Shown here piece after piece: positions 21,556 through 36,122 of a stretch of DNA of 64,000 bases. Each line of letters opens with the position of its first letter. The stretch's first letter is position 1. The notes beneath the pieces are model-generated. The model did not search any database. It worked only from the letters and a program-made list of their open reading frames with translations, and had not been told where the DNA came from. This stretch comes from Haloarcula sp. DT43 (GTDB lineage: Archaea > Halobacteriota > Halobacteria > Halobacteriales > Haloarculaceae): the NCBI RefSeq assembly GCF_037078405.1, contig NZ_JAYMGZ010000001.1:248001-312000 (forward strand), in the 5' to 3' direction. The position numbers were made by a program, and so were the translations under genes.

Positions 21556-22356
21556 TCAGGCCACGGCGACGCCGACGACGTCGGGGACGCCCAGCGAGCG
21601 CTGCCGCCAGCCGCCCTGGCCGTCCGCCGTCGCCTCGGCCACGGTCGCCACGAGGAAGGTCCCGTCCTCGGTGATGGCGTAGGTGTCGTCGCCGTGAACC
21701 ACGTCGACCACGCGCTCGTCGACGGGGAGGGCACACGGCTCCCACGCCCCGTCGGTCCGTTCGTAGAGCCCGTCCGCCGCGGCGGCGTGGACGCGGTCGC
21801 CGTCGGCGGCGACGGCCCGGTGGCTCCCCGAACGGACCTCTGTCCAGTCGTCGCCCGCGCGGCGGTAGAGCCCGCTCTCGGTCGCGGCGTAGCCGGCGGC
21901 CACGTCGGTCACGTCGGCCAGCCCCAGCCGGTCCAGCGAGGGAAGGGCGTACACGCCGTCGGCCGCGGCGAGCAGGCCGCCGTCGATGGCGCGCACGCCG
22001 TCGACGGCTCCGAGGGCAGTCCACTCGCCGTCGGCGTAGCGGGCGACGCGGCCGTCGCCGGCCGCGAGCAGTCCGTCGCCGTCGTAGCCGACCGCGGTGG
22101 CCGGGCCGAACCCGGTCGGGACGAAGCCGTCGTCGGTCGAGACGAGCACGTCCTCGTCGGTGGCGACCGCGACCTCGCCGCTCGCGCCGGCCACGTCGCG
22201 GGCGGTACAGCGCTCGCTCAGGCTGAACCGGCCTATCTGGCCGCCGGCGGTCTCGACGCGGGTGACGCCCAGCCCCGACGCGACGTACGCGTGGGTCTCC
22301 GGGCGCTTCTCCCCGTACATCCGCTTCTCCGACAGCGCGATGTCGTCGTCGCTCAC
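21556..22356 (-). CDS. Haloarchaeal beta-propeller-like protein
   Basis: 266 residues from a GTG at 22356. The sequence is a run of short degenerate beta repeats with recurring patterns such as ATESGLYRRAGDDW, AADGLYERTDGAW and ITEDGTFLVATV, roughly 40 residues apart, as in a beta-propeller. I think it belongs to the group named after Haloferax HVO_0234, but from memory only. The start lies 1 nt after the hemL stop, so it is probably cotranscribed with hemL. Function unknown. Confidence 0.72.
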   Translation of the reverse strand: MSDDDIALSEKRMYGEKRPETHAYVASGLGVTRVETAGGQIGRFSLSERCTARDVAGASGEVAVATDEDVLVSTDDGFVPTGFGPATAVGYDGDGLLAAGDGRVARYADGEWTALGAVDGVRAIDGGLLAAADGVYALPSLDRLGLADVTDVAAGYAATESGLYRRAGDDWTEVRSGSHRAVAADGDRVHAAAADGLYERTDGAWEPCALPVDERVVDVVHGDDTYAITEDGTFLVATVAEATADGQGGWRQRSLGVPDVVGVAVA

Positions 22357-22357
22357 T

Positions 22358-23695
22358 TCATATCGCCTCTTTGTACGCTTCGAGCGCATTCTCTATGTCT
22401 TCACCTGTGTGGGCATCACAGATGAACTGTGACTCGAACTGGTTCGCCGTGAGGAACACGCCCTGCTCTTTCATCGCGGGCCAGAACAGCCGCTCCCACC
22501 GCTCGGTCTCGGCCTGTGTCACGTCGTGGCCGGTCTTCGGGCAGTAGTCGAAGCGGGGGCAGGACTCCCGCTGCTGACAGCCGGCCTCGCAGTGGCCGTC
22601 GAAGGAGTCCGGCCCGTCGCGGGTGAAGATGACCTTGAACATCGAGTCGCGGCCGACGACGGTGTACTCGGGGGCCTGGTCTTCGAGGATGTCCTGCAGG
22701 CCCGACCGGAGGCGTTCGCCCAGCGCGTTGACGTGGTCGTATACGTCGTGTTCAGCCGCATACCGTAGCGTCTCCAGTCCGGCGGCCATCGTGACGGGGT
22801 GGCCGGAGAACGTGCCGGACTGGAACACGTCGCCGGCGGGCGTGAACTGCTCGATGATTTCGCTCTTGCCGCCGATTGCGCCCACGGGGAAGCCACCGCC
22901 GACGATTTTCCCGAAGGTAGTGATGTCGGGGTCGATGCCGAACGCGCCCTGGGCGCACTGCAGGCCGCCGACGCGGAAGCCGGTGATGACCTCGTCGAAG
23001 ACCAGCAGGGAGCCGTGGTCGTCACACAGTTCGCGCAGGGTCTCGTGGTAGCCCTCGACCGGGTGGACGATGCCGTAGTTCCCGAGGATAGGTTCGGTAA
23101 GGACTGCGGCGATGTCGTCGCCGTGTTCCTCGAACACTTCGCGGGCGGCTTCCTCGTCGTTGAACGGCACGGTCAGCGTGTGCTCGGCGAAGCTCTCGGG
23201 GATGCCGGGGCTGGAGGGTGCGGTGTGGTCGCCCTCGCCCTCGACCAGCGTCGACTCCTGTGCGCCGTGGTAGCCGCTCTGCATGACGACGATTTTGTCC
23301 CGTCCGGTGTAGCCACGAGCGAGTCGGACCGCCGAGACAGTCGCCTCGGTCCCGCTGTTGACGAACCGCAGCATCTCGACGCTGGGGACGTGCCGGGTGA
23401 CGAACTCGGCCAGTTCGACCTCGACCTCGGTGGGCGCGCCGTACATCGGCCCCTCGGCGGCGTGTCGCTGGATGGCCGACTGGACCTGGTCGGGCAAGCT
23501 GTGTCCCAGCAGCAGCGGCCCGTAGCCCATGACGAAGTCGATGTAGCGGTTGCCGTCGGCGTCGACGACGTGCCCGCCGTCCCCCTTCTCGACGAAGAAC
23601 GGGTAGGGCCGTGTCGCCCGCACGGAGGAGTTGACGCCGCCCGCCAGCACCGACAGGGCGCGGTCGTACAGCGCTCGTGACTGCTCGTGGTTCAT
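22358..23695 (-). CDS. hemL: Glutamate-1-semialdehyde 2,1-aminomutase
   Basis: 445-residue PLP enzyme of class III aminotransferases that converts glutamate 1-semialdehyde to 5-aminolevulinate in the C5 route to heme. Motifs: GGVNSSVRA near the N-terminus, [31 protein letters not shown], and [18 protein letters not shown] with the PLP lysine. A Cys-rich insertion ([17 protein letters not shown]) near residue 365-385 may hold a metal; such an insert is not in most bacterial HemL. The last ~20 codons use unusually many A/T-ending codons. Confidence 0.95.
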
Positions 23696-23942
23696 ACGCG
23701 GCCGTTTGACCGCTGCCAGAAAGAAACTGTTGTTAGCCGTCTGTGCGATTCTGCCGAGCGGACCGGGTGCCAGCGAGGCGGGCTGAACGGATGTCCGGAT
23801 TCTCTCGGAAAGAAACGCTTTCGTAAAGAGTTACTGTTTTACACTGCGTGTTCATCTACATAGCTAACAGAATGCTAGCCGAATGTGCTGGAATACCGTG
23901 TATGAGTGGACGGACGGGCGTCTTTGTGGCGCGTGATTCGCT

Positions 23943-26009
23943 GTGAGCGACTGGGTCCCGACCACCTGCATGCGCTGTGCCGTCGGCTGCGGGCACATGC
24001 ACCGGGCCGCGGACGTGGGGTACGGCATCGACACGGCCCGCGGCGACGCGGCGCACCCGGTCAGTCAGGGGCTGGCGTGCTCCCGCGGCATCAGCGAGAG
24101 CCAGGACCCCGACGGCGAGTGGCTCTCGCGGCCGATGGTCCGCAGCGACGGCGAACTCCGCCAGACCACGTGGGACGTGGCGCTGGCCCGCGCCGTCGAG
24201 GGGCTCCAGGCCGTCCACTCGCGCGACCCGGATTCCGTGGCGATACTCGGAAGTGGGCAACAGACCAACGAGGCCGCCTACGCGCTCGGGAAGGTCGCCC
24301 GCGGCGGCTTCGGCACGCGCAACTACGACGCGAACACGACGCTGTGCATGGCCAGCGCCGTCACCGCCTACTACCAGGCGTTCGGCAGCGACGCGCCGCC
24401 GTGTACCTACGCCGACATCGGCGAGGCCGACCGCCACGTCGTCTGGGGCGCGAACCCCGCCGTCGCCCACCCCGTGATGTTCCGCTGGATTCGCCAGGCC
24501 GCCGACGAGGACGACGTGGAGATAGTCGTCGTCGACCCCGTCCGCTCCGAGACGGCCGAGAACTCCGAGCACCACGTCGCACCCGACCCCGGGAAGGACC
24601 TCGCGCTGGCCCGGGCCGTGCTCGCCCGCATCGTCGAGACCGAGCGGGTCGACCGCGAGTTCGTCGCCGAGGCGACCGAGGGCTTCGAGGACCTGCTGGC
24701 CTCGCTTCCGGATGCCGCGGTTGCGGCCGACGAGGCCGGCGTCGAGATGGCCGACGTGGACCTGCTGGCCGAGGCGCTCGACCAGCGGGCGCTGGTCTAC
24801 TGGGGCATGGGCATCAATCAGCACGTCCAGGGGACCGAGACCGCGCGCGCGCTCATCGACCTGACGCTGGCGACGGGGAACCTCCGGCCCGGCGGCGGGC
24901 CGTTCTCACTGACCGGCCAGGCCAACTCCATGGGGACCCGCATCTGCTCCTCGAAGGGCTCCTGGCCCGGTCAGCGCGCCTTCGAGGACCCCGACCACCG
25001 CCGCGTCGTCGCCGACCACTGGGACGTGCCGGTCGACCGCCTGCCGGACGACTCCGGTCCCGGGCCGGTCGGGATGCTCGAAGACGGCCCCGAGGCCGTC
25101 TGGACGGTGGCGACGAACCCCGTCGCCGGGATGCCCGAGGCCGAGAGCGTTCGTGAGACGCTCGACGACGCCTTCCTCGTCGTGCAGGACGCCTTCCACA
25201 CGGAGACCGTCGAGGTCGCGGACGTGGTGTTGCCCGCGGCGACGTGGGGCGAGAGCGAGGGGACGACGACGAACATGGAGCGGACCATCTCCCGGGTGCG
25301 AGCGGCGACCGACGTGCCGAGCGGCGTCAAGCCGGACCTCGACATCATCGCCACCATCGGCTCGCGGCTGTTCCCCGGCCTGTTCCACGACGACACGTCC
25401 CCGGACCCGGAGGCGATATTCGACGAGTTCACGGCGCTGACCGAAGGCACCGTCGCGGACTGCTCGGGCATCACCTACGACCGGCTCGACGACGTGCACG
25501 CGGTGAGGTGGCCCGCGCCCGACGAGGACAGCGTCGGCGGCTACCGCTACTACGACGACGGCGAGACGTGGTCGTTCCCCACCGGCACTGGCCGCGCCAA
25601 ATTCTCGACGGGCCGCCAGGGCGCGCTTCCGGAACCGACCGACGAGGAGTACCCGCTGACCCTTACCACCGCCCGCGAGGCCGACGGCTACAACACTGGC
25701 GTCCGGTCCCGCGGCGGCGAGGCCGGGCCGCTGGTGGCCCGCATCAACCCCGAGACGGTCGAGGACCACAGCGGGCTCGTCACCGACGGGACCCTGACCG
25801 TCGAAACGCGCCGCGGCTCCGCGACGGTCGCCATCGACCGGGACGAGGGCGTCCCCCGCGGGATGGTGTGGTTGCCGATTCACCACCCGGCGACGAACCG
25901 GCTGACGCTCTCGGACCGGGACCCCCAGTCCGACGAGCCGAACTTCAAGCAGTGTGCCGCCCGTCTCGTCGCCCCCGAGGCCGAACTGCCGCCGGCCGCG
26001 GCCGACTGA
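23943..26009 (+). CDS. nasA: Assimilatory nitrate reductase, catalytic subunit (paralogue 1)
   Basis: 688 residues with a GTG start, a molybdopterin oxidoreductase of the Nas/Nap group reducing nitrate to nitrite in the cytoplasm. C9, C12, C16 and C46 form the N-terminal 4Fe-4S site (TTCMRCAVGCG...GLACSRG). C135 in NTTLCMASAV is the expected Mo ligand. Later MGINQHVQGTE and the C-terminal molydopterin-dinucleotide binding domain (about 560-680) are present. No Tat signal. Over the first 140 residues it aligns without gaps to the paralogue at 26097-28214 with 87 identities. Tail-to-tail with it, 87 nt apart. Confidence 0.9.
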   Translation: MSDWVPTTCMRCAVGCGHMHRAADVGYGIDTARGDAAHPVSQGLACSRGISESQDPDGEWLSRPMVRSDGELRQTTWDVALARAVEGLQAVHSRDPDSVAILGSGQQTNEAAYALGKVARGGFGTRNYDANTTLCMASAVTAYYQAFGSDAPPCTYADIGEADRHVVWGANPAVAHPVMFRWIRQAADEDDVEIVVVDPVRSETAENSEHHVAPDPGKDLALARAVLARIVETERVDREFVAEATEGFEDLLASLPDAAVAADEAGVEMADVDLLAEALDQRALVYWGMGINQHVQGTETARALIDLTLATGNLRPGGGPFSLTGQANSMGTRICSSKGSWPGQRAFEDPDHRRVVADHWDVPVDRLPDDSGPGPVGMLEDGPEAVWTVATNPVAGMPEAESVRETLDDAFLVVQDAFHTETVEVADVVLPAATWGESEGTTTNMERTISRVRAATDVPSGVKPDLDIIATIGSRLFPGLFHDDTSPDPEAIFDEFTALTEGTVADCSGITYDRLDDVHAVRWPAPDEDSVGGYRYYDDGETWSFPTGTGRAKFSTGRQGALPEPTDEEYPLTLTTAREADGYNTGVRSRGGEAGPLVARINPETVEDHSGLVTDGTLTVETRRGSATVAIDRDEGVPRGMVWLPIHHPATNRLTLSDRDPQSDEPNFKQCAARLVAPEAELPPAAAD

Positions 26010-26096
26010 CCGTTCGGTTTCAGTGTTCGCCGACCGCACGAACCGCGCGGTCGCAGCGCTCGTCGCCCCAGCGCGTAGAAAAGTCGAAGCCGCGTC

Positions 26097-28214
26097 TCAG
26101 TCGCTCCCGAGCGTGCCGCTCCGCGGGAGCCCGTTGCGAGTCACCGTCGACGAGGTGTCGGGCGTCGCCAGTCGGACGGCGCACTGTTTGTAGTTCGGCT
26201 CGTTGGACTCGGGGTCGACGGCCGGCAGCGTCAGCTCGTTGACGGCGGTGTTGTGGATGTCCATCCAGATGGTCCCCGGGGGGACGGCGTCGTCCGGCGC
26301 GAGGTCGACGGTCACGCTGCCCCGCCGCGACTCGACGACGGTCCGGCCACGGTCGAACAGCTGGACGTACTGGCCGGCCGTCTCGGGGTGGATGCGGGCC
26401 GTCGGGATGTCGTCGTTCGCTCCCTCCGCCCTGACGTCCGTGTTGTACGCCTCCGCGCGCCGCCCGGTCGTCAGCGTCAGCGGATAGGTCGCGTCGGTCG
26501 GCTCGGGCAGCCCCTTGTACGTCGGCTCCGTGAACTGCGCCAGCCCGGAGTCCGTCGGGAACGACCACGTCTCGCCGTCGTCCGCGTTGGGGTCGTAGTA
26601 GCGGTACCCGCCTTCCGTGGACTCGTCGGGCGCGGGCCAGCGGACGGCCAGTTCCGCGTCGAGGCGGTCGTAGGTGATGCCCGAGCAGTCGGCGACGGTG
26701 CCCTCGGTCAGCGCCGCGAACTCGTCGAAGACGGTCTCCGGGTCGATTGGCGGGTCGTCGAACAGCGTCTCGTCGAGGCGGTTCCCGATGGCGGCGATGA
26801 TGTCGAGGTCCTGCCGGACGCTGTCGACCGTCTCGGTCACGGCGCTGACCTTCGAGACGCGCCGTTCCATGTTCATCGTCGTGCCCTCGCTCTCGCCCCA
26901 CGTCGCCGCGGGCAGGACCACGTCGGCGTACTCGACGGTTTCCGAGTGGAACGCGTCCTGCACGACGAGGAAGACGTCGTCGAGCGACCGCCTGACGTTC
27001 GTGGCGTCGGGCATCCCGACGACGGGGTTGGTGGCGACGGCCCAGACGGCGTCGATGTGGCCGCGGTTGATTTCGTCGACGATGCCGACCGGGCCGGGGC
27101 CGGGCGACGCCGGCAGCCGGTCCAGCGGCACGTCCCAGTGGTCGGCGACTGCCGTCCTGTGGTCGTCGTCGGTGAACGGGCGGTGCCCGGGCCAGGCCTC
27201 CTTCGAGGAGACGACCCGTGCGCCCATGGAGTTGGCCTGGCCGGTCAGCGAGAACGGGCCGCTTCCGGGCCCCATGTTCCCCGTCGCCAGACACAGATTG
27301 ATGAGCGACCGCGCGGCGTCGGTGCCGTTCGTGCTCTGGTTGACGCCCATGCCCCAGTAGACCAGCGTCCGGTCTTCGAAGGCGTCGGCCAGCGCGTCGA
27401 CGGTCTCGACGGGGACGCCGGCCGTCTCGGCGGCGCACTCGACCGGCGGGAGCGAGGCACGGAGGTCCTCGTAGCCGTCGGTGTAGTCCTCGACGAACGC
27501 GCGGTCGACCCGCCCGGTCTCGACCAGCCGCGCGAGGACGGCGCGTGCGAGCTCCACGTCCGTCCCGGCTTCGAGCTGGACGCACAGGTCGGCGTCGGTG
27601 GCGGTCTCGCTTCGCACCGGGTCGACGACGACGAGACGGCTGTCCGGCTCGCTCGCGCTGTCGAGAATCCAGCGGTAGAGGACGGGGTGTGCCGCGGCCG
27701 GGTTCGCACCCCAGACGAGATGCGTCTCCGCTTTCGGGATGTCGTCGTAGGTACACGGCGGCGCGTCGCTACCGAAGGCGTCGTAGTAGGCGGTGACGGC
27801 GCTGGCCATGCACAACGTCGTGTTCGCGTCGAAGTACTCGGTCCCGATGCCGGCGCGGGCGACCTTCCCGAGCGCGTAGGCGGCCTCGTTGGTCTGTTGC
27901 CCGCTTCCGAGGACTGCGATTCTGTTCGGGTCCTCCGCGATGGTCTGGATGAACTCCGAGGCGACGATGCCCAGTGCCGTCCGCCAGGATGTCGGCTTGA
28001 GTGTGTCCCCGCGCCGGACCAGCGGCTCGGTGAGCCACTCCCCGTCCGGGTTCTCGGTTTCCCTGATACCGCGCTCGCAGGCGAGCCCGTTCGAGACGGG
28101 GTGGTTCCGGTTCCCGCGAACTGTGTCGATGCCGTACCCCTCGTCGACGCCACGCTGTTGCTGTCCACAGCCCACGGCACACCGCATGCAGGTGGTTGGC
28201 TTCCAGTAGTTCAT
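26097..28214 (-). CDS. nasA: Assimilatory nitrate reductase, catalytic subunit (paralogue 2)
   Basis: 705 residues from ATG 28214. Same architecture as its paralogue: 4Fe-4S cysteines C9, C12, C16, C46, Mo-ligand C135, and C-terminal molydopterin-binding domain; no Tat signal. It faces the transporter gene across a 688-nt spacer, like the nasA side of the nas cluster described in Haloferax mediterranei, so this is the better candidate for the main NasA. Electrons probably come from ferredoxin, as in haloarchaeal Nas. Function by family; which copy works in vivo is unknown. Confidence 0.92.
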   Translation of the reverse strand: MNYWKPTTCMRCAVGCGQQQRGVDEGYGIDTVRGNRNHPVSNGLACERGIRETENPDGEWLTEPLVRRGDTLKPTSWRTALGIVASEFIQTIAEDPNRIAVLGSGQQTNEAAYALGKVARAGIGTEYFDANTTLCMASAVTAYYDAFGSDAPPCTYDDIPKAETHLVWGANPAAAHPVLYRWILDSASEPDSRLVVVDPVRSETATDADLCVQLEAGTDVELARAVLARLVETGRVDRAFVEDYTDGYEDLRASLPPVECAAETAGVPVETVDALADAFEDRTLVYWGMGVNQSTNGTDAARSLINLCLATGNMGPGSGPFSLTGQANSMGARVVSSKEAWPGHRPFTDDDHRTAVADHWDVPLDRLPASPGPGPVGIVDEINRGHIDAVWAVATNPVVGMPDATNVRRSLDDVFLVVQDAFHSETVEYADVVLPAATWGESEGTTMNMERRVSKVSAVTETVDSVRQDLDIIAAIGNRLDETLFDDPPIDPETVFDEFAALTEGTVADCSGITYDRLDAELAVRWPAPDESTEGGYRYYDPNADDGETWSFPTDSGLAQFTEPTYKGLPEPTDATYPLTLTTGRRAEAYNTDVRAEGANDDIPTARIHPETAGQYVQLFDRGRTVVESRRGSVTVDLAPDDAVPPGTIWMDIHNTAVNELTLPAVDPESNEPNYKQCAVRLATPDTSSTVTRNGLPRSGTLGSD

Positions 28215-28389
28215 CTGTCGGAACAGTTCGCCGTCGGGACGGCACGCTGATTTCGGGTAACGAAGCGCGTTCGGCCGCTGGCCGGCGGGTTCCGGACCAG
28301 ACCGCGCGAACGCGAGTCGTTCCGTCGTTCGTCTCTCATTGTGATGGTGGACAGGTACGCATCTCGCGTTCGTTCACGATACTGCCCTG

Positions 28390-28395
28390 TATATA
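28390..28395 (-). promoter_or_regulatory. Candidate TATA box of nasA
   Basis: TATATA, within the minus-strand context CCCCTATATACAGGG. If used, transcription would begin near 28365 and leave a leader of about 150 nt before the nasA ATG at 28214. Confidence 0.35.
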
Positions 28396-28426
28396 GGGGA
28401 TATTCATATGAGCAGCCGAATAACAC

Positions 28427-28441
28427 TTTCGTTGAACGAAA
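28427..28441. promoter_or_regulatory. Perfect palindrome, candidate operator of the nas genes
   Basis: TTTCGTT-G-AACGAAA, a 7-1-7 perfect inverted repeat about 32 nt upstream of the candidate nasA TATA box. Position and symmetry fit a dimeric regulator site; no regulator is identified. Confidence 0.4.
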
Positions 28442-28890
28442 ATATTGGAAAAATCACGACAACTGGTCACACGGAATCGGTCGCCGCGCAGGTCGCACCC
28501 GCTCGGACGAGGTCCGTCGGGACGGTCACGAGCACTCCGCTGTCAGACTGAACGGGAGCTTCAGTCCCTCTGGACCGAATATTCCACCGTCTGCGGTGCG
28601 AACACTCCAACCAGTGTCGCGTCAGACGAGCCCGATTGACGATTACACACTCGAATCGGCGACTTCGTTGACGTTCGTAAGAATCGCTCGCCCGGCCGGG
28701 ACAGAAACGGCTGGATTGACGGGATGTCTGAATAGGCTCTAAATATTCCGATTTTGTAAACGAACATCGTTATAATCCTCTGTTCGATAGCATATACTGA
28801 GTCAATGTGTTCGAACGTAGTGGAAAATCGGCGCAAAGATGGCAGATTTCAACTAATGATCGGTAACAATTGCCGCTCGACGACGGTCAC

Positions 28891-28897
28891 GGAGGTG
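28891..28897 (+). promoter_or_regulatory. Shine-Dalgarno site of the nitrate transporter gene
   Basis: GGAGGTG, five bases before the ATG at 28903. It fixes that ATG as the start and shows the transcript has a leader, unlike most haloarchaeal genes. Confidence 0.7.
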
Positions 28898-28902
28898 TCA
28901 CG

Positions 28903-30225
28903 ATGGGACTGATCAAGATGACGAAGTATCGGACGCTGTTGCTGGCGACCATCGGGTTCAACTTCTCCTTTCTCATCTGGTTCTCGTTCGCGCCGTTCAC
29001 GGGACCGATTGCCGACGAGTTCGGGCTGACGACGGCCGAAATCGGCATCCTCGCCAGTTCGGCCATCTGGATGGCTCCCTTCGGCCGGATGCTGACCGGC
29101 TGGCTCTCGGATAAGTTCGGCGCGCCGGCAATCTTCGCTATCGTGCTGGCGTACGTCGGCGTGTTCTCGATTGCGAGCGCGTTCGCGCAGGACTACTCTC
29201 TGTTCTTCGTGACGCGGCTCATCGTGGCGACGGCGGGCATCACGTTCGTCATCGGCATCCAGCACGTCGCCGAGTGGTTCGAAGAGGAGAACCTCGGACT
29301 GGCCGAGGGCATCTACGCCGGCGTCGGCAACGCCGGTGCGGCGGGCGGCGCGCTCGTCCTCCCGCGCGTCTTCGGCACGGGCTGGAGCGGGCCGCTGTTC
29401 GCTACGAGCTGGCGGGCCGCCTTCTTCTACACCGGTATCGTCTCCATCGTCCTGGCCGTCGCGTACTACACGCTCGGCGAGGCCGCGAAGACCGCGGAGA
29501 AGCGCCAGGCCACCAAGGACAACGCGAGCTTCAAGGACTGGGTCCACACGGCGACCCGTTACGGGACCGTCGTCCTCGCGCTGGCGTACGTGATGTCGTT
29601 CGGCCTCGAACTCTCGATGAACGGCTGGCTCGCCACCTACTACCGCGAGGCGTTCAATCAGGACAACCTCGTCGTCGCGAGCACGTTCGCCGCGACGTTC
29701 TCCGTCGCCGCCGGCCTCCTGCGCCCCATCGGCGGCTACGTCAGCGACGTACTCGCCCGCAAGGAGAAGGACATCCTGCCGTTCTTCACGGGCCGCTACC
29801 GCGAGCAGTGGACGTTCGTCACGCTGTGTTTCATCGTCGTGACGATGTTCGCGATGACGCTCGCCGGGCTCTCGGGCGTGCTGATGAACGCCGTCGTCAT
29901 CGGCTTCCTCGTCGGCACGGCCTGTGCCTTCGCCGAGGGCTCCATCTTCGCGATGGTCCCCTCGATGTTCCCCAACAGCTCCGGCGCGGTCGCGGGCGTC
30001 GTCGGCGGCGTCGGCACCGTCGGCGGAATCATCTACCCGCTGATCTACTCCGCCCCGTGGCTGGCGAACCTCCACCTCGGCTACTCCATCGTCGCGGCCT
30101 CGATGATTCCCATCGTGTTGCTCGCGGCGTGGGTGTTCCAGCCGGAAATCGCGCAGGTCGCCAACACCGCCGGCTTCGTCGGCGGGTCGGGCAGCACGGA
30201 GACGGTTCCGTCCGGGGACGACTGA
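28903..30225 (+). CDS. nasB: Nitrate/nitrite MFS transporter (NarK/NasB-like)
   Basis: 440 residues with about 12 membrane helices. [20 protein letters not shown] is the nitrate/nitrite-porter version of the MFS loop, and [17 protein letters not shown] contains the Gly-rich nitrate signature region; a second appears in the C-terminal half ([20 protein letters not shown]). It imports nitrate for the cytoplasmic NasA. The MobA-like gene overlaps its stop by 1 nt (TGATG). The gene order transporter-MobA-nitrite reductase resembles the nas region of Haloferax mediterranei, whose nasB name I use. Confidence 0.88.
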
Positions 30226-30809
30226 TGCGCTCGGCAGTGGTCCTCGCGGGCGGGCACTCGACACGCGCTAGCGAGACCGGCGGGGCGACCGCCGATTTCG
30301 ACGGCGAGCCGATGATTCGCCACGTCGTGGCCGGGGTCAGCGACGCCGTCGACGAGGTGGTCGTCAACTGCCGCGACGACCAGCGCGCGGCCATCGAGGC
30401 GGCGCTGTCCGGACTGGACGTGCGGTTCGCCTTCGACCCGGTCCCCGACGGCGGCCCGGTCGCGGGCATCCGAACCGGCTGCCGGGTCGCGCGCGGCGAG
30501 TGGACGTTCGTCACGCCCTGCGACCGGCCGTCCGTCTCCACCGCGCTCCCCCAGCAACTGTTCGAGGCCGCGGCCGGCGACGGCGCGGTCCCCCTCGTCG
30601 GCGGCAGCCCGCGCCCGCTCTCGGCCGTCTACGACACGCGGGCGGCCATCGAAGCCTGCGAGACGACCATCGGGCTCGGCTCGCCGGCCGTCTCGGACTT
30701 CCTCGCGCGGCTCTCGCCGGTCACCGTTGCGGACCCGGTTCCCGAGCACGCGTTCGACGGGTTCGACACGCCAACCGCGCTCCGTGTCTCCAGGGACCGG
30801 TCCGCGTAA
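30225..30809 (+). CDS. MobA-like molybdenum cofactor guanylyltransferase (divergent)
   Basis: 194 residues. The fold matches MobA-type nucleotidyltransferases: N-terminal VVLAGGHSTR, DGEPMIRHVV, and a metal-binding Asp in TPCDRPSVS. MobA adds GMP to molybdopterin to give the MGD cofactor needed by nitrate reductase. The usual RxG...K after the Gly loop reads RASETGG here, so the conserved Gly and Lys are replaced. Translationally coupled to the transporter (TGATG). It corresponds in position to nasC of Haloferax mediterranei. Confidence 0.75.
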   Translation: MRSAVVLAGGHSTRASETGGATADFDGEPMIRHVVAGVSDAVDEVVVNCRDDQRAAIEAALSGLDVRFAFDPVPDGGPVAGIRTGCRVARGEWTFVTPCDRPSVSTALPQQLFEAAAGDGAVPLVGGSPRPLSAVYDTRAAIEACETTIGLGSPAVSDFLARLSPVTVADPVPEHAFDGFDTPTALRVSRDRSA

Positions 30810-31139
30810 CCGGTCGACACGGCCGTCTGACCGCGCCGCCGTCCGTCGGTTTTCTCGCCTGTGCAGGCCCCGGGAGCGACGCCTCGCTCGCCGCCGAACA
30901 CTTCTGGACACTCGTCCGCCCGAGCGGGCCTGACCGGTCGTTCGTCAAACGCCCCGCTTTATCACCGCCGTCTCGGCGCCCTTCTTGACGGTCGTTCGCT
31001 AACGCGACCCTACGTCCGTCTTTGTCAACGAATAGGGTTTTACCCCTCCGAATAAAACGTTCAGCCGTAAATTAGCGGACATTCGAACATATATGAGCGA
31101 TAAAATAATACGCACTTTCGAAACGGGAGGGCACTGACG
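30810..31139. other. Gene-free region upstream of nitrite reductase
   Basis: The first ~200 bases are G/C-rich with no recognisable gene. From about 31000 the sequence becomes A/T-rich (TATA-like stretches near 31088-31094 and 31100-31110) and ends with a Shine-Dalgarno site, so this holds the promoter and leader of the nitrite reductase gene. Confidence 0.6.
31125..31131 (+). promoter_or_regulatory. Shine-Dalgarno site of nitrite reductase gene
   Basis: GGGAGGG with 8 bases to the ATG at 31140; decides that start. Confidence 0.65.
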
Positions 31140-32906
31140 ATGCCACACAAGAAAGAAGAGATAAAGGGCGAACTGTACGGCGACGCCGTCCGGGAGAAGC
31201 TCGAGGAGTTCGCCGAACAGGGCTGGGAGTCGATTCCCGAGGACGAGCGCGAGGAGTGGTTCTCGCGGTTCAAGTTCTGGGGCGTGTTCCACCACCGCGG
31301 CGGTCAGGAGTCGTACTTCATGATGCGGCTGACAAACTGCGGAGGAATCCTCGAACCCGACCAGCTCCGGGCCATCGGTGAGGTCGCCCGCGACTACGCC
31401 AAGGGCCCCGCCGAGAATCCCGAGTTCGGCAACGGCTGGATAGACCTCACGACGCGCCAGTCCATCCAGCTCCACTGGCTCAAGCTCGAGGACATCCCCG
31501 AGATATGGGAGAAGCTCGAAGCGGTCGGCGTCTCCTCGCGCTCGGCGGGCGGGGACACGATGCGCAACATCTCCGGCTGTCCCGTCGCCGGCAAGGCCGA
31601 GGAGTACGTCGAGTCCCGCCCCATCTTAGACGAGATTCAGGAGACCATCCGGGAAGACGACGACCTCTGTAACATGCCCCGGAAGTTCAACATCTCCGTG
31701 TCGGGGTGTCGCCAGGGGTGTGCCCAGGATAGTATCAACGACATCGGGCTGGAACCGGCCCACAAGTTCGTCGACGGCGAGGAGGTCGAGGGGTTCAACG
31801 TCCGCGTCGGCGGCGGCCTCGGCGGCCGCGAACCGCGCGAGGCCCGCCCGCTCGACCTGTTCGTCCGCCCGGAACACGCCGTCGAGACCGTCCGGGCGTT
31901 CGTCGAGTACTACCACGAGGAGGGCAACCGCCAGAACCGCTCGAAGAACCGCGCGCGCTTCTTCGTTGACGAGCACGGCACCGACGCCATCCGGGAGGCA
32001 CTCGACGAGCGGCTGGACTTCGAGTTCGAGACCGCCGGCACGGACTTCCGTGGGGAGTACACGTACAACGCCGGCAAGCCCATCGAGTACGGTGCCCACG
32101 ACCACGTCGGCGTCTACGACCAGGAGGACGGGAAGAACTACGTCGGCCTCTCGGTCCCCGTGGGCCGGCTCTCTGCCGAGGACGCAATCGAGCTAGCGGA
32201 CCTCGCCGACGCCTACGGCTCGGGCGAGGTGCGGCTGACCCGCCGGCAGAATCCGCTCGTCATGGACGTGCCCGACGACAAGCTCTCGAACCTGCTCAAC
32301 GAGCCGCTGCTGGACAAGCACTCGCCCGAGCCCAACCCCTTCGTCCAGGGCGCGATGGCCTGTACCGGGACGGAGTTCTGCTCGCTGGCGCTGACCGAGA
32401 CGAAGGCCCGGATGGCCCGCCTGCTCCGCTGGCTCGGCGACAACGTCGACGTGCCCGACGACGTGGACCGAATCAAGATGCACTTCTCGGGCTGTACGGC
32501 CGACTGCGGGCAGGCGATGACGGCCGACATCGGCCTGCAGGGGATGCGCGCCCGCAAGGACGGCCAGATGGTCGAGGCCGTCGACGTGGGCGTCGGCGGC
32601 GGCATCGGCGAGAACCCGTCGTTCATCGAGTGGGTCCGCCAGCGCGTGCCCGCCGACGAAGCGCCGGGCATGATAAAGAACATCGTCGAGGCCTACGCGG
32701 CGCTGCGCTCGGAGGGCCAGACATTCCAGGAGTGGGTCGACGCCACTGGTCACGAGACCATCGTGGAACTGGCTGAACCCCACGAGGTCGAGGGGTACAC
32801 CGACCCCTGCCTGACCGACGGCAAGCAGTCCTGGTACCCCTTCGACGACGGCGAGAGCCCCGCCCCGACCGACGCCGAGGGCCAACCCATCTCGGCGGAC
32901 GACTGA
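31140..32906 (+). CDS. nasD: Ferredoxin-nitrite reductase
   Basis: 588-residue siroheme and 4Fe-4S enzyme reducing nitrite to ammonium with ferredoxin as donor. The cluster/siroheme cysteines are C408 and C414 (CTGTEFC) and C452 and C456 (CTADC), the standard C-x5-C...C-x3-C arrangement. Two ferredoxin-like half repeats are visible (NISGCPVAGKAEE region and VPVGRLSAEDAIELADLADA region). Cytoplasmic; works after NasA. Preceded by its own promoter and Shine-Dalgarno site. It is the NirA family; in Haloferax mediterranei the gene is called nasD. Confidence 0.94.
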   Translation: MPHKKEEIKGELYGDAVREKLEEFAEQGWESIPEDEREEWFSRFKFWGVFHHRGGQESYFMMRLTNCGGILEPDQLRAIGEVARDYAKGPAENPEFGNGWIDLTTRQSIQLHWLKLEDIPEIWEKLEAVGVSSRSAGGDTMRNISGCPVAGKAEEYVESRPILDEIQETIREDDDLCNMPRKFNISVSGCRQGCAQDSINDIGLEPAHKFVDGEEVEGFNVRVGGGLGGREPREARPLDLFVRPEHAVETVRAFVEYYHEEGNRQNRSKNRARFFVDEHGTDAIREALDERLDFEFETAGTDFRGEYTYNAGKPIEYGAHDHVGVYDQEDGKNYVGLSVPVGRLSAEDAIELADLADAYGSGEVRLTRRQNPLVMDVPDDKLSNLLNEPLLDKHSPEPNPFVQGAMACTGTEFCSLALTETKARMARLLRWLGDNVDVPDDVDRIKMHFSGCTADCGQAMTADIGLQGMRARKDGQMVEAVDVGVGGGIGENPSFIEWVRQRVPADEAPGMIKNIVEAYAALRSEGQTFQEWVDATGHETIVELAEPHEVEGYTDPCLTDGKQSWYPFDDGESPAPTDAEGQPISADD

Positions 32907-33964: not shown

Positions 33965-34423
33965 TCAGGCGTCAGTCCCGTCGACCGGGAACTGCTCGTG
34001 TTCACAGACCGTGTTCAACACGACTGACGTCGAGGCAGAGCGGATGTCCTCGTCGGTCAGCAGCGTCTTTATCCGCTCGTTCATCGACTGCGTGTCGGTG
34101 AACTTCCCGACGGCCACGATGTCGTGGTCGCCGGTCACTTCGTAGACCGCGATCATCTCGCGGCGGTTACGTAACTGCTCCACCACCCGTCCGAGCCCGT
34201 CGCCCTCGACGGAGAGCTGGAACACGGCGGTCACGTCGTACCCCAGCGCCCCGTAATCGATGTCGACGGTGTATTCGTCGATCACACCGGTCGCCTCCAG
34301 GTCGTCCATCCGGCGCGAGACCGTGGTCGCCGCGATGCCGGTCGCCGCGGCGACGTCACGGGCGCTCGCACGGCCGTCCTGGAGCAGTGCGTTCACCACC
34401 TGCCTGTCGGTATCATCGACCAT
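33965..34423 (-). CDS. Lrp/AsnC family transcriptional regulator
   Basis: 152 residues: an N-terminal winged helix-turn-helix (DTDRQVVNALLQDGRASARD, then GIAATTVSRRMDDLE) and a RAM-type ligand-binding domain (VTAVFQLSVEGDG, EVTGDHDIVAVGKF). Starts 9 nt after the glnK stop on the same strand, so amt-glnK-lrp form one unit. It may sense an amino acid such as glutamine and control the unit itself; that is inference from position. A C-terminal CEHEQFP tail is unusual. Confidence 0.88.
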   Translation of the reverse strand: MVDDTDRQVVNALLQDGRASARDVAAATGIAATTVSRRMDDLEATGVIDEYTVDIDYGALGYDVTAVFQLSVEGDGLGRVVEQLRNRREMIAVYEVTGDHDIVAVGKFTDTQSMNERIKTLLTDEDIRSASTSVVLNTVCEHEQFPVDGTDA

Positions 34424-34432
34424 TTCGTCCGC

Positions 34433-34798
34433 TCAGACTGCCTCGGGGCCTTCTTTACCGGTCCTGACCTGGTAGGCGTTGTCCACGGGGAGGACGAATA
34501 TCTTGCCGTCTCCTTTCTCGCCGGTGTGGGCACCGTCGGCGATGGCCTCGACCACGTCGTCGGCGGGGATGTCCGCGACGACTGTCTCGACTTTGACCTT
34601 CTGGTGGAGGTCGACGACGTACTCCTCGCCGCGCCACTGCCCCTTCTTCGCGGGCTGTGAGCCGCGGCCGGAGACGTTCGTCACTGTCAGCGACGGGGCA
34701 CCGACTTCGGCGAGCGCCTTCTTCACGTCGCCCAGTTTGTCCGGTCGAACCATTGCCACTATCATCTTGATCTCGGTTTCGTCGTTTTCTTCAGTCAT
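34433..34798 (-). CDS. glnK: PII nitrogen regulatory protein
   Basis: 121 residues, PII fold. The T-loop is [14 protein letters not shown] with Tyr60, equivalent to the uridylylated Tyr51 of bacterial PII; the C-terminal loop [19 protein letters not shown] is intact. A 9-residue acidic extension precedes the canonical start of the fold. It binds ATP/ADP and 2-oxoglutarate and regulates Amt and often glutamine synthetase. Its start overlaps the amt stop by 8 nt, the near-universal amt-glnK pairing. Confidence 0.95.
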
Positions 34799-36122
34799 CG
34801 CTGGAACCTCCGTCAGTCCGCACGTCCGTGCTCACTTCGCCACCGTCGGCGACGACGCTCTCGCCGCCACCGAACTCGGGGTAGGTCTCGACGCCGTGCT
34901 CGCTGACGTCCAGCCCTTCCTGTTCGTGTTCGGGCGTGACCCGAGCCTCGCCCATGGCCTTCAGAGCGTACCAGATGATCCCGGTCGTAACGACGGTCCA
35001 GACCGTGATAACGGCGACGCCGACTACCTGCGAGATGAACGCGGTCACGACCGAGCCGACCGAACCGGACGTGGCGACGAACGGGAACAGCAGGGTGCCG
35101 AGTACGCCGGCGCTCCCGTGGACCGGGAAGACGGCACAGACGTCGTCGATCTTCAGGCGCTTCTCGACGAAGCCGAAGACGACGGGGAGCTGTGCGCCGG
35201 CGAGGCCGCCGACCACGAACGCGCCCCACCAAGTGGTGGTGTCCGGGATGGCCGTGATGCCGACCAGGCCGGCCAGCAGGCCGTTCGCGACGTAGAGCGT
35301 GTCGACTTTGCCGGTCTTCGCCCACGCGGCGAGTCCAGCGCCCATCGCACCACACGCCATCGCGATGGTCGTCGTCATGGCGACGCGGCCGACGTAGCTG
35401 AACGCACCGAGCGCGAGCGTCCCTTCCTCGGTCACCGTGAACACGGACGCGGCGGTGCCGACGTTGAAGCCGTACCAGCCGAACGCGAGGATGAGCGTCC
35501 CGAGCACGGCGAAGGTCAGGGAGTGGCCCGGAATGACGTTCGCGGAGCCGTCTTCGTTGTACCGACCCATGCGCGGACCGAGGACGTACGCCGCGGTCAG
35601 GCCGGCGATACCGCCCATGCCGTGAACGATCATGCCGCCCGCGAAGTCCTTGAACACCGCGCCACCGAAGCTGAGGTGCGATCCGGCCCACGTGAGACCG
35701 GTGACGACCGGGTAGATGACCGCGGCCAGCAGGATCGTGTACGTGATGTACGCGCGGAGTTTCGCGCGACCGGCCACCGCGCCGGAGACGATCGTCGCCG
35801 CCGTCATCGCGAAGACGGCGCCGAACAGCCACCCGACGTAGTCGTTGGCCGCCGACGCCCCAAAGGCGGGGGCGAAGGAGCCGGAGCCGACCAGGGAGCT
35901 GATGCCCGACCCGATGAGGAAGAACACCGTCACCCCGACCGACCAGGTCAGGAGGTTCTTCGTCAGCTGGTTCGCGACGTTCTTCGAACGCACCTGGCCC
36001 GCTTCGAGCATGGCGAAGCCCGCGTGCATGAAGAAAATCAGGAACGATACCACCAGTACCCACAGTAGGTTAACCCCCTCTGCGAGTACGCTTGGGTCCA
36101 CCTGTAGTGCTGTGTAGCTCAT
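34791..36122 (-). CDS. amt: Ammonium transporter
   Basis: 443 residues with about 11 membrane helices. Conserved Amt motifs include [19 protein letters not shown] near the N-terminus, [20 protein letters not shown] (contains the first pore His), and [14 protein letters not shown] (second pore His). The C-terminal tail ([20 protein letters not shown]) is the region gated by GlnK. First gene of amt-glnK-lrp. A Shine-Dalgarno site (AGGTG, minus strand of 36131-36135) precedes the ATG. Confidence 0.96.

Follow-up and report, generated by a model that had tools for sequence, protein, structure and literature searches.

Two lineages of assimilatory nitrate reductase paired at one locus of Haloarcula sp. 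DT43

The subject of this study is a pair of adjacent genes for assimilatory nitrate reductase (NasA) in a 64,000-nucleotide stretch of DNA from the haloarchaeon Haloarcula sp. DT43 (contig NZ_JAYMGZ010000001.1, positions 248,001 to 312,000), the whole of which is hereafter called the window. The two genes, nasA-A and nasA-B, encode proteins (A and B) of separate haloarchaeal lineages, and we consider it probable, on balance, that the pair consists of a primary NasA (A) and a co-induced, mobile, accessory assimilatory nitrate reductase of an old lineage (B). The B lineage is found across several haloarchaeal families almost only alongside another NasA. It travels as a block with narK, a nitrate/nitrite transporter gene, or with its partner, and its gain or loss at the nas locus has happened several times, in one case or more through recombination between flanking nas genes.

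The gene pair

23943..26009, + strand: nasA-A, GTG start, 688 amino acids (aa); genus-wide assimilatory nitrate reductase, putative primary copy; 1222 bits to family model NF041323
26097..28214, - strand: nasA-B, ATG start, 705 aa; second assimilatory nitrate reductase, of the putative accessory clade; 1167 bits to NF041323

The first-pass annotation of this DNA had described two full-length convergent reading frames of 688 and 705 residues, and both were recovered at the same coordinates with 87 nt between their stop codons, an observation far beyond what chance would give. Its count of 87 ungapped identities over the first 140 residues proved exact on recount, and the full-length alignment contains 428 identical residues of 687 (62%) with 9 gap columns. 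Molybdopterin, Molydop_binding and Fe4S4 domains occur in both proteins, and both exceed the 1000-bit cut-off of NF041323 (NasA_Halo). The genomic context that belongs to this model, a linked nitrate transporter and ferredoxin-nitrite reductase, is also present (narK and nirA, 28870-32906). The search of the complete genome assembly (3.75 Mb, 19 contigs) returned exactly two NasA above the cut-off, A and B, and no third; three further molybdoenzyme matches are weaker and lie under the NF041323 cut-off.

Two separate lineages

Phylogenies were inferred with FastTree from 222 distinct NasA and four outgroup molybdoenzymes, and with IQ-TREE under a mixture model from 70 of the FastTree rows. Nine fragments shorter than 550 aa were left out, identical sequences were collapsed, and matches below 500 bits to A or B were counted as other molybdoenzymes. 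In both trees A is nested in a Haloarcula-wide NasA clade and B belongs to a separate clade of 46 distinct proteins (Shimodaira-Hasegawa support 99), a number that did not change after 84 rows were added; the phylogeny proposed in the first-pass annotation thus places the two copies in distinct haloarchaeal NasA clades. The B clade comprises the Haloarcula B proteins, members from two metagenome-assembled genomes (MAGs) and Salinadaptatus, as well as second NasA copies from Halorubrum, Halonotius, Haloquadratum, Salinigranum, Halogeometricum, Halohasta and Natronomonas. Clade C, which holds the first copy of the tandem pairs, is sister to it.

When A and the Haloarcula B proteins were forced into one clade, the log-likelihood fell by 283 and the constrained tree was rejected (approximately unbiased test, p about 2e-41); the constrained group was picked after the tree had been seen, and the margin is very large. 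Because this one-clade tree is rejected, the pair is not a Haloarcula duplication. Adjacency and 62% identity would suit an old duplication within Haloarcula followed by divergence of both copies, yet B clusters with the second NasA of other families and not with A, and together with the likelihood cost of a single Haloarcula clade this leaves such an origin extremely unlikely. The earlier statement that B is not a recent copy holds, and of the two origins it offered, an old duplication or a second acquisition, the trees favour both in sequence, with the B lineage arising as an old paralogue outside Haloarcula and being acquired later.

B accompanies another NasA

The class sample comprised 391 genomes, in which NasA was counted at an E-value of 1e-200 or better and genome tallies were made by hand from tables. 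NasA is present in 186 of them, 151 with one copy and 35 with two or more, so that the earlier statement that haloarchaeal nas clusters usually have a single nasA is borne out and NasA pairs are a recurrent minority. B is held by 32 of the 35 multi-NasA genomes (the exceptions are G038, G348 and G353). Among the single-copy NasA of the class sample placed in the trees just one is a B, in an 88% complete MAG (G103), and the family search added a second B-only case in a 78% complete MAG (G145). For 44 of the 46 distinct B proteins another NasA occurs in the genome, within 5 kb for 39 and elsewhere for 5, and the remaining two are these incomplete MAGs. All 35 B-carrying genomes that are at least 90% complete possess a second NasA, and the window genome likewise holds a non-B NasA (A) beside its B. 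In addition, narK lies within 1 kb of B for 44 of the 46. We found no mention of paired NasA in haloarchaea in the literature searched, which hardly extended to subscription journals.

Pairs of other kinds also exist. In genus g43 (L257 of G353 and L258 of G348), a NasA pair with no B-clade member is arranged around narK and nirA, and G038 and G044 (L048-L051) carry two unlinked NasA on separate contigs, neither of the B clade.

Gene order and movement of B

Haloarcula loci with B typically read A, B (convergent), narK, nirA, and those without B read A, narK, nirA; nirA is placed between A and B in G011 and G020, and the loci of G027 and G028 are rearranged. In Halorubrum and Halonotius nirA is divergent from C-B-narK, and in Haloquadratum and some Halorubrum another NasA together with nirA is divergent from B-narK. 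The tail-to-tail layout of the window is thus incidental, one of several pair layouts.

B is absent in 15 of the 28 rows of the A clade, and the A tree calls for no fewer than five changes between its presence and absence, four of these being forced by well-supported branches. The narK adjacent to B in most Haloarcula and the narK of most B-less Haloarcula belong to different branches, with G021 and a few others crossing over. In G025, the region from B to the gap between narK and nirA is approximately 85-93% identical to the window; with B-less relatives it either shares 70-89% identity or cannot be aligned. By contrast, nasA-A, nirA and the outer regions are closer to B-less relatives in most 500-nt steps. 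From this mosaic pattern it follows that the B-narK block was swapped by recombination. Pairs move as units too, since Haloarcula-type A and B occur together in two genomes of genus g10, and a Halorubrum-type pair in Natronomonas LN261. Frequent recombination between haloarchaeal genera is already known (PMC4500145).

The slot between nasA-A and narK seems to have undergone gene exchange repeatedly. A tblastn search with A and B of this gap in 15 B-less loci found no B remnant, and a 24-nt DNA match in G016, which is in the wrong orientation, was not counted as one. In two B-less loci, L065 (G017) and L067 (G013), the gap holds a reading frame that resembles a transporter of the major facilitator superfamily (MFS), judging from its translation.

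Residues, fold and selection

The ligands C9, C12, C16, C46 and C135 reported in the first-pass annotation were confirmed in both copies and are conserved in 222 of 222 aligned NasA. R333, Q326, N292 and H176 are invariant in the same 222, and M136 is found in 221. Alignment to the periplasmic nitrate reductase NapA of Desulfovibrio desulfuricans equates R333 with R354 and Q326 with Q346, positions which we take to line the active site. A and B are identical at R333, Q326, N292, H176, C135 and M136, and the earlier suggestion that they may differ in substrate finds no support in these residues. Structure models of A and B (mean predicted local distance difference test scores of 86.1 and 86.6) have a periplasmic nitrate reductase as their nearest solved structure, with a template modelling (TM) score of 0.90.

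The possibility that one copy belongs to a different molybdoenzyme family was also considered, and neither does. Assignment of B to formate dehydrogenase or another molybdoenzyme was ruled out by models, residues and fold. A and B score 372 and 406 bits with the formate dehydrogenase alpha model TIGR01591 against a cut-off of 666, and 248 and 257 bits with the NapA model TIGR01706 against a cut-off of 931. Formate dehydrogenase alpha subunits have selenocysteine or cysteine followed by histidine at the molybdenum site; in both A and B, C135 is followed by Met, not His.

Over 12 species pairs the ratio of nonsynonymous to synonymous substitution (dN/dS) is 0.09-0.21 for A and 0.12-0.26 for B, higher for B in 10 of the 12, and these ratios are rough in the widest pairs, where synonymous distances reach 0.74. 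Both copies are thus kept by purifying selection, which is slightly looser for B.

A common promoter box

A 22-nt box ending in a TATA-like GTTWT lies upstream of each of the four nas genes:

23819..23840, + strand: box of nasA-A, starting 124 nt before the start codon; top match of the matrix trained on other genomes, and among the top four sites even with its own gene left out
28420..28441, - strand: box of nasA-B, starting 227 nt before the start codon, with a 15-nt palindrome inside; among the top four
28752..28773, + strand: box of narK; among the top four in all leave-one-out scans
31020..31041, + strand: box of nirA; among the top four in all leave-one-out scans

When each gene in turn was left out of training, scans of the 64-kb window always returned the same four promoters as the four best sites, B included, with training sites that had been selected for likeness to the window's box. 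With B promoters left out of training, the nasA-B box scores 15.2 bits and the next site 7.5. Across the upstream stretches the box was found in 26 of 27 for A, 27 of 28 for narK, 23 of 23 for nirA and 11 of 12 for B. In most Haloarcula loci it starts 110-124 nt ahead of the start codons of A, narK and nirA (one narK outlier is at 213) and 165-227 nt ahead of that of B. Because the four nas promoters are always the best sites, B most likely belongs to the regulon of A, narK and nirA, with a longer leader. This leader (window 28215-28441) also varies more than the leaders of the other three genes. An exact-pattern search for the narK-type box in the same genome gave two sites, the narK promoter and, as the sole other match, one on contig C5 (G000:C5:83582-83594).

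In Haloferax mediterranei, the nasABC operon is described as switched on with nitrate or under nitrogen starvation and off with ammonium, and a Lrp/AsnC protein as binding its promoter (PMC8143581). By analogy we infer, and only infer, that the lrp gene beside the cluster of the window is a candidate regulator.

Neighbouring genes

22358..23695, - strand: hemL, glutamate-1-semialdehyde aminomutase; upstream neighbour of nasA-A
28870..30225, + strand: narK, nitrate/nitrite MFS transporter, divergent from nasA-B; TIGR00886 196 bits (below the cut-off of 312), Pfam MFS_1
31140..32906, + strand: nirA, ferredoxin-nitrite reductase; best model PRK09566 427 bits (below the cut-off of 594), NIR_SIR domains
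33965..36122, - strand: lrp, a glnK-type P-II gene and amt; genes for nitrogen regulation and ammonium uptake, adjoining the nas cluster

The pair is followed on its far side by narK, nirA, a CheC-like gene, lrp, the P-II gene and amt, and hemL stands on the other side. Between prs and hemL (window 21556-22389) there is a gene for an HVO_0234-like beta-propeller protein, which many Haloarcula loci retain next to nasA-A. The neighbours searched around the nas cluster included no mobA, and no RNA family in the window reached its gathering threshold.

Role of the second enzyme

Both A and B would be ferredoxin-dependent nitrate reductases of the cytoplasm that are induced jointly in the absence of ammonium. 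Nitrate would enter by NarK, A and B would reduce it to nitrite, and NirA would make ammonium. B may add capacity, or cover a range of nitrate level, electron donor, salt or oxygen that is poorly served by A. We propose that B does not replace A, and that this is why B alone was not seen in near-complete genomes.

Several points weigh against an accessory role of this kind. The co-occurrence of B with a partner could partly stem from B sitting in, and moving with, the nas cluster, and the species relationships behind its gains and losses were judged from the A tree, which is itself open to transfer. Moreover, of the 261 positions that are at least 95% conserved in non-B NasA, a median of 11 are altered in B proteins, compared with medians of up to 7 in 30 held-out non-B clades of 12-60 rows; the B of the window departs at 18, of which two (339 and 350) come soon after R333. 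Such departures may mean a real change of function instead of simple added capacity, and we treat them as a lead to altered kinetics and nothing beyond. Reduction of another oxyanion, or some other molybdoenzyme role, could be read from the same departures, among them G339 and P350 close to the catalytic R333. We hold this to be very unlikely, as every signature nitrate-reductase residue is retained, B adjoins narK and is usually near nirA, and its scores are far under the formate dehydrogenase, NapA and arsenite oxidase model cut-offs.

How far B depends on its partner is a separate matter. B might be an obligate accessory that has lost solo nitrate growth, needs a partner NasA (for a specialised donor, affinity or salt range, or as partner chain) and spreads as a B-narK cassette, which we regard as a minor possibility. 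A and B might also be subunits of one hetero-oligomer, with B needing the partner NasA; the lack of a lone B in genomes at least 90% complete and the two movements of pairs as units would fit. However, B partners very different NasA types, lacks linkage to its partner in 5 of 46 cases, and in G025 adjoins an A of another branch. To our knowledge the characterised NasA are single catalytic chains, which also counts against this arrangement, and we find it quite improbable. B may also be an equivalent isoenzyme, picked up in passing, that has no role of its own and is either retained for dosage or on its way out, as the identical catalytic residues, the common promoter box and the absence of B from over half of the A-clade rows would allow. 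This plain redundancy also seems unlikely to us: B is under purifying selection, its pairing recurs with several NasA lineages in differing layouts, and other NasA lineages often occur alone, which B never does in near-complete genomes.

Should B occur solely as an addition, the pair offers a natural test of the benefit of a second assimilatory nitrate reductase, for which close Haloarcula that carry or lack B, a single natural recombinant and several kinds of partner are at hand. The curated family model names both copies alike, and the second lineage is invisible in annotation. More generally, the gene content of the nas locus has been reshaped by recombination between species.

Comparison with known systems

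The reference for NF041323 is the nasA of Haloferax mediterranei (HFX_2002); both copies of the window pass its cut-off with the same ligands, and counterparts of its nasB and nasD, narK and nirA, are nearby here too. A single nasA is described for that species, forming a nasABC operon together with narK and a MobA-like gene (PMC8143581), whereas here two convergent nasA each have their own promoter box. NapA of D. desulfuricans (2nap, 2v45) has the same fold as A and B (TM score 0.90, 30-32% identity), Cys-Met at the molybdenum and the conserved Arg, but A and B are without an N-terminal export extension before the Fe-S motif and are under the NapA model cut-offs. Further parallels are the pairs of Halorubrum, Halonotius, Haloquadratum and Salinigranum, in which the B orthologue adjoins narK and a non-B NasA is in the genome. 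Those pairs are arranged in tandem as C-B-narK with nirA divergent, or with another NasA and nirA divergent from B-narK, whereas A and B of Haloarcula converge.

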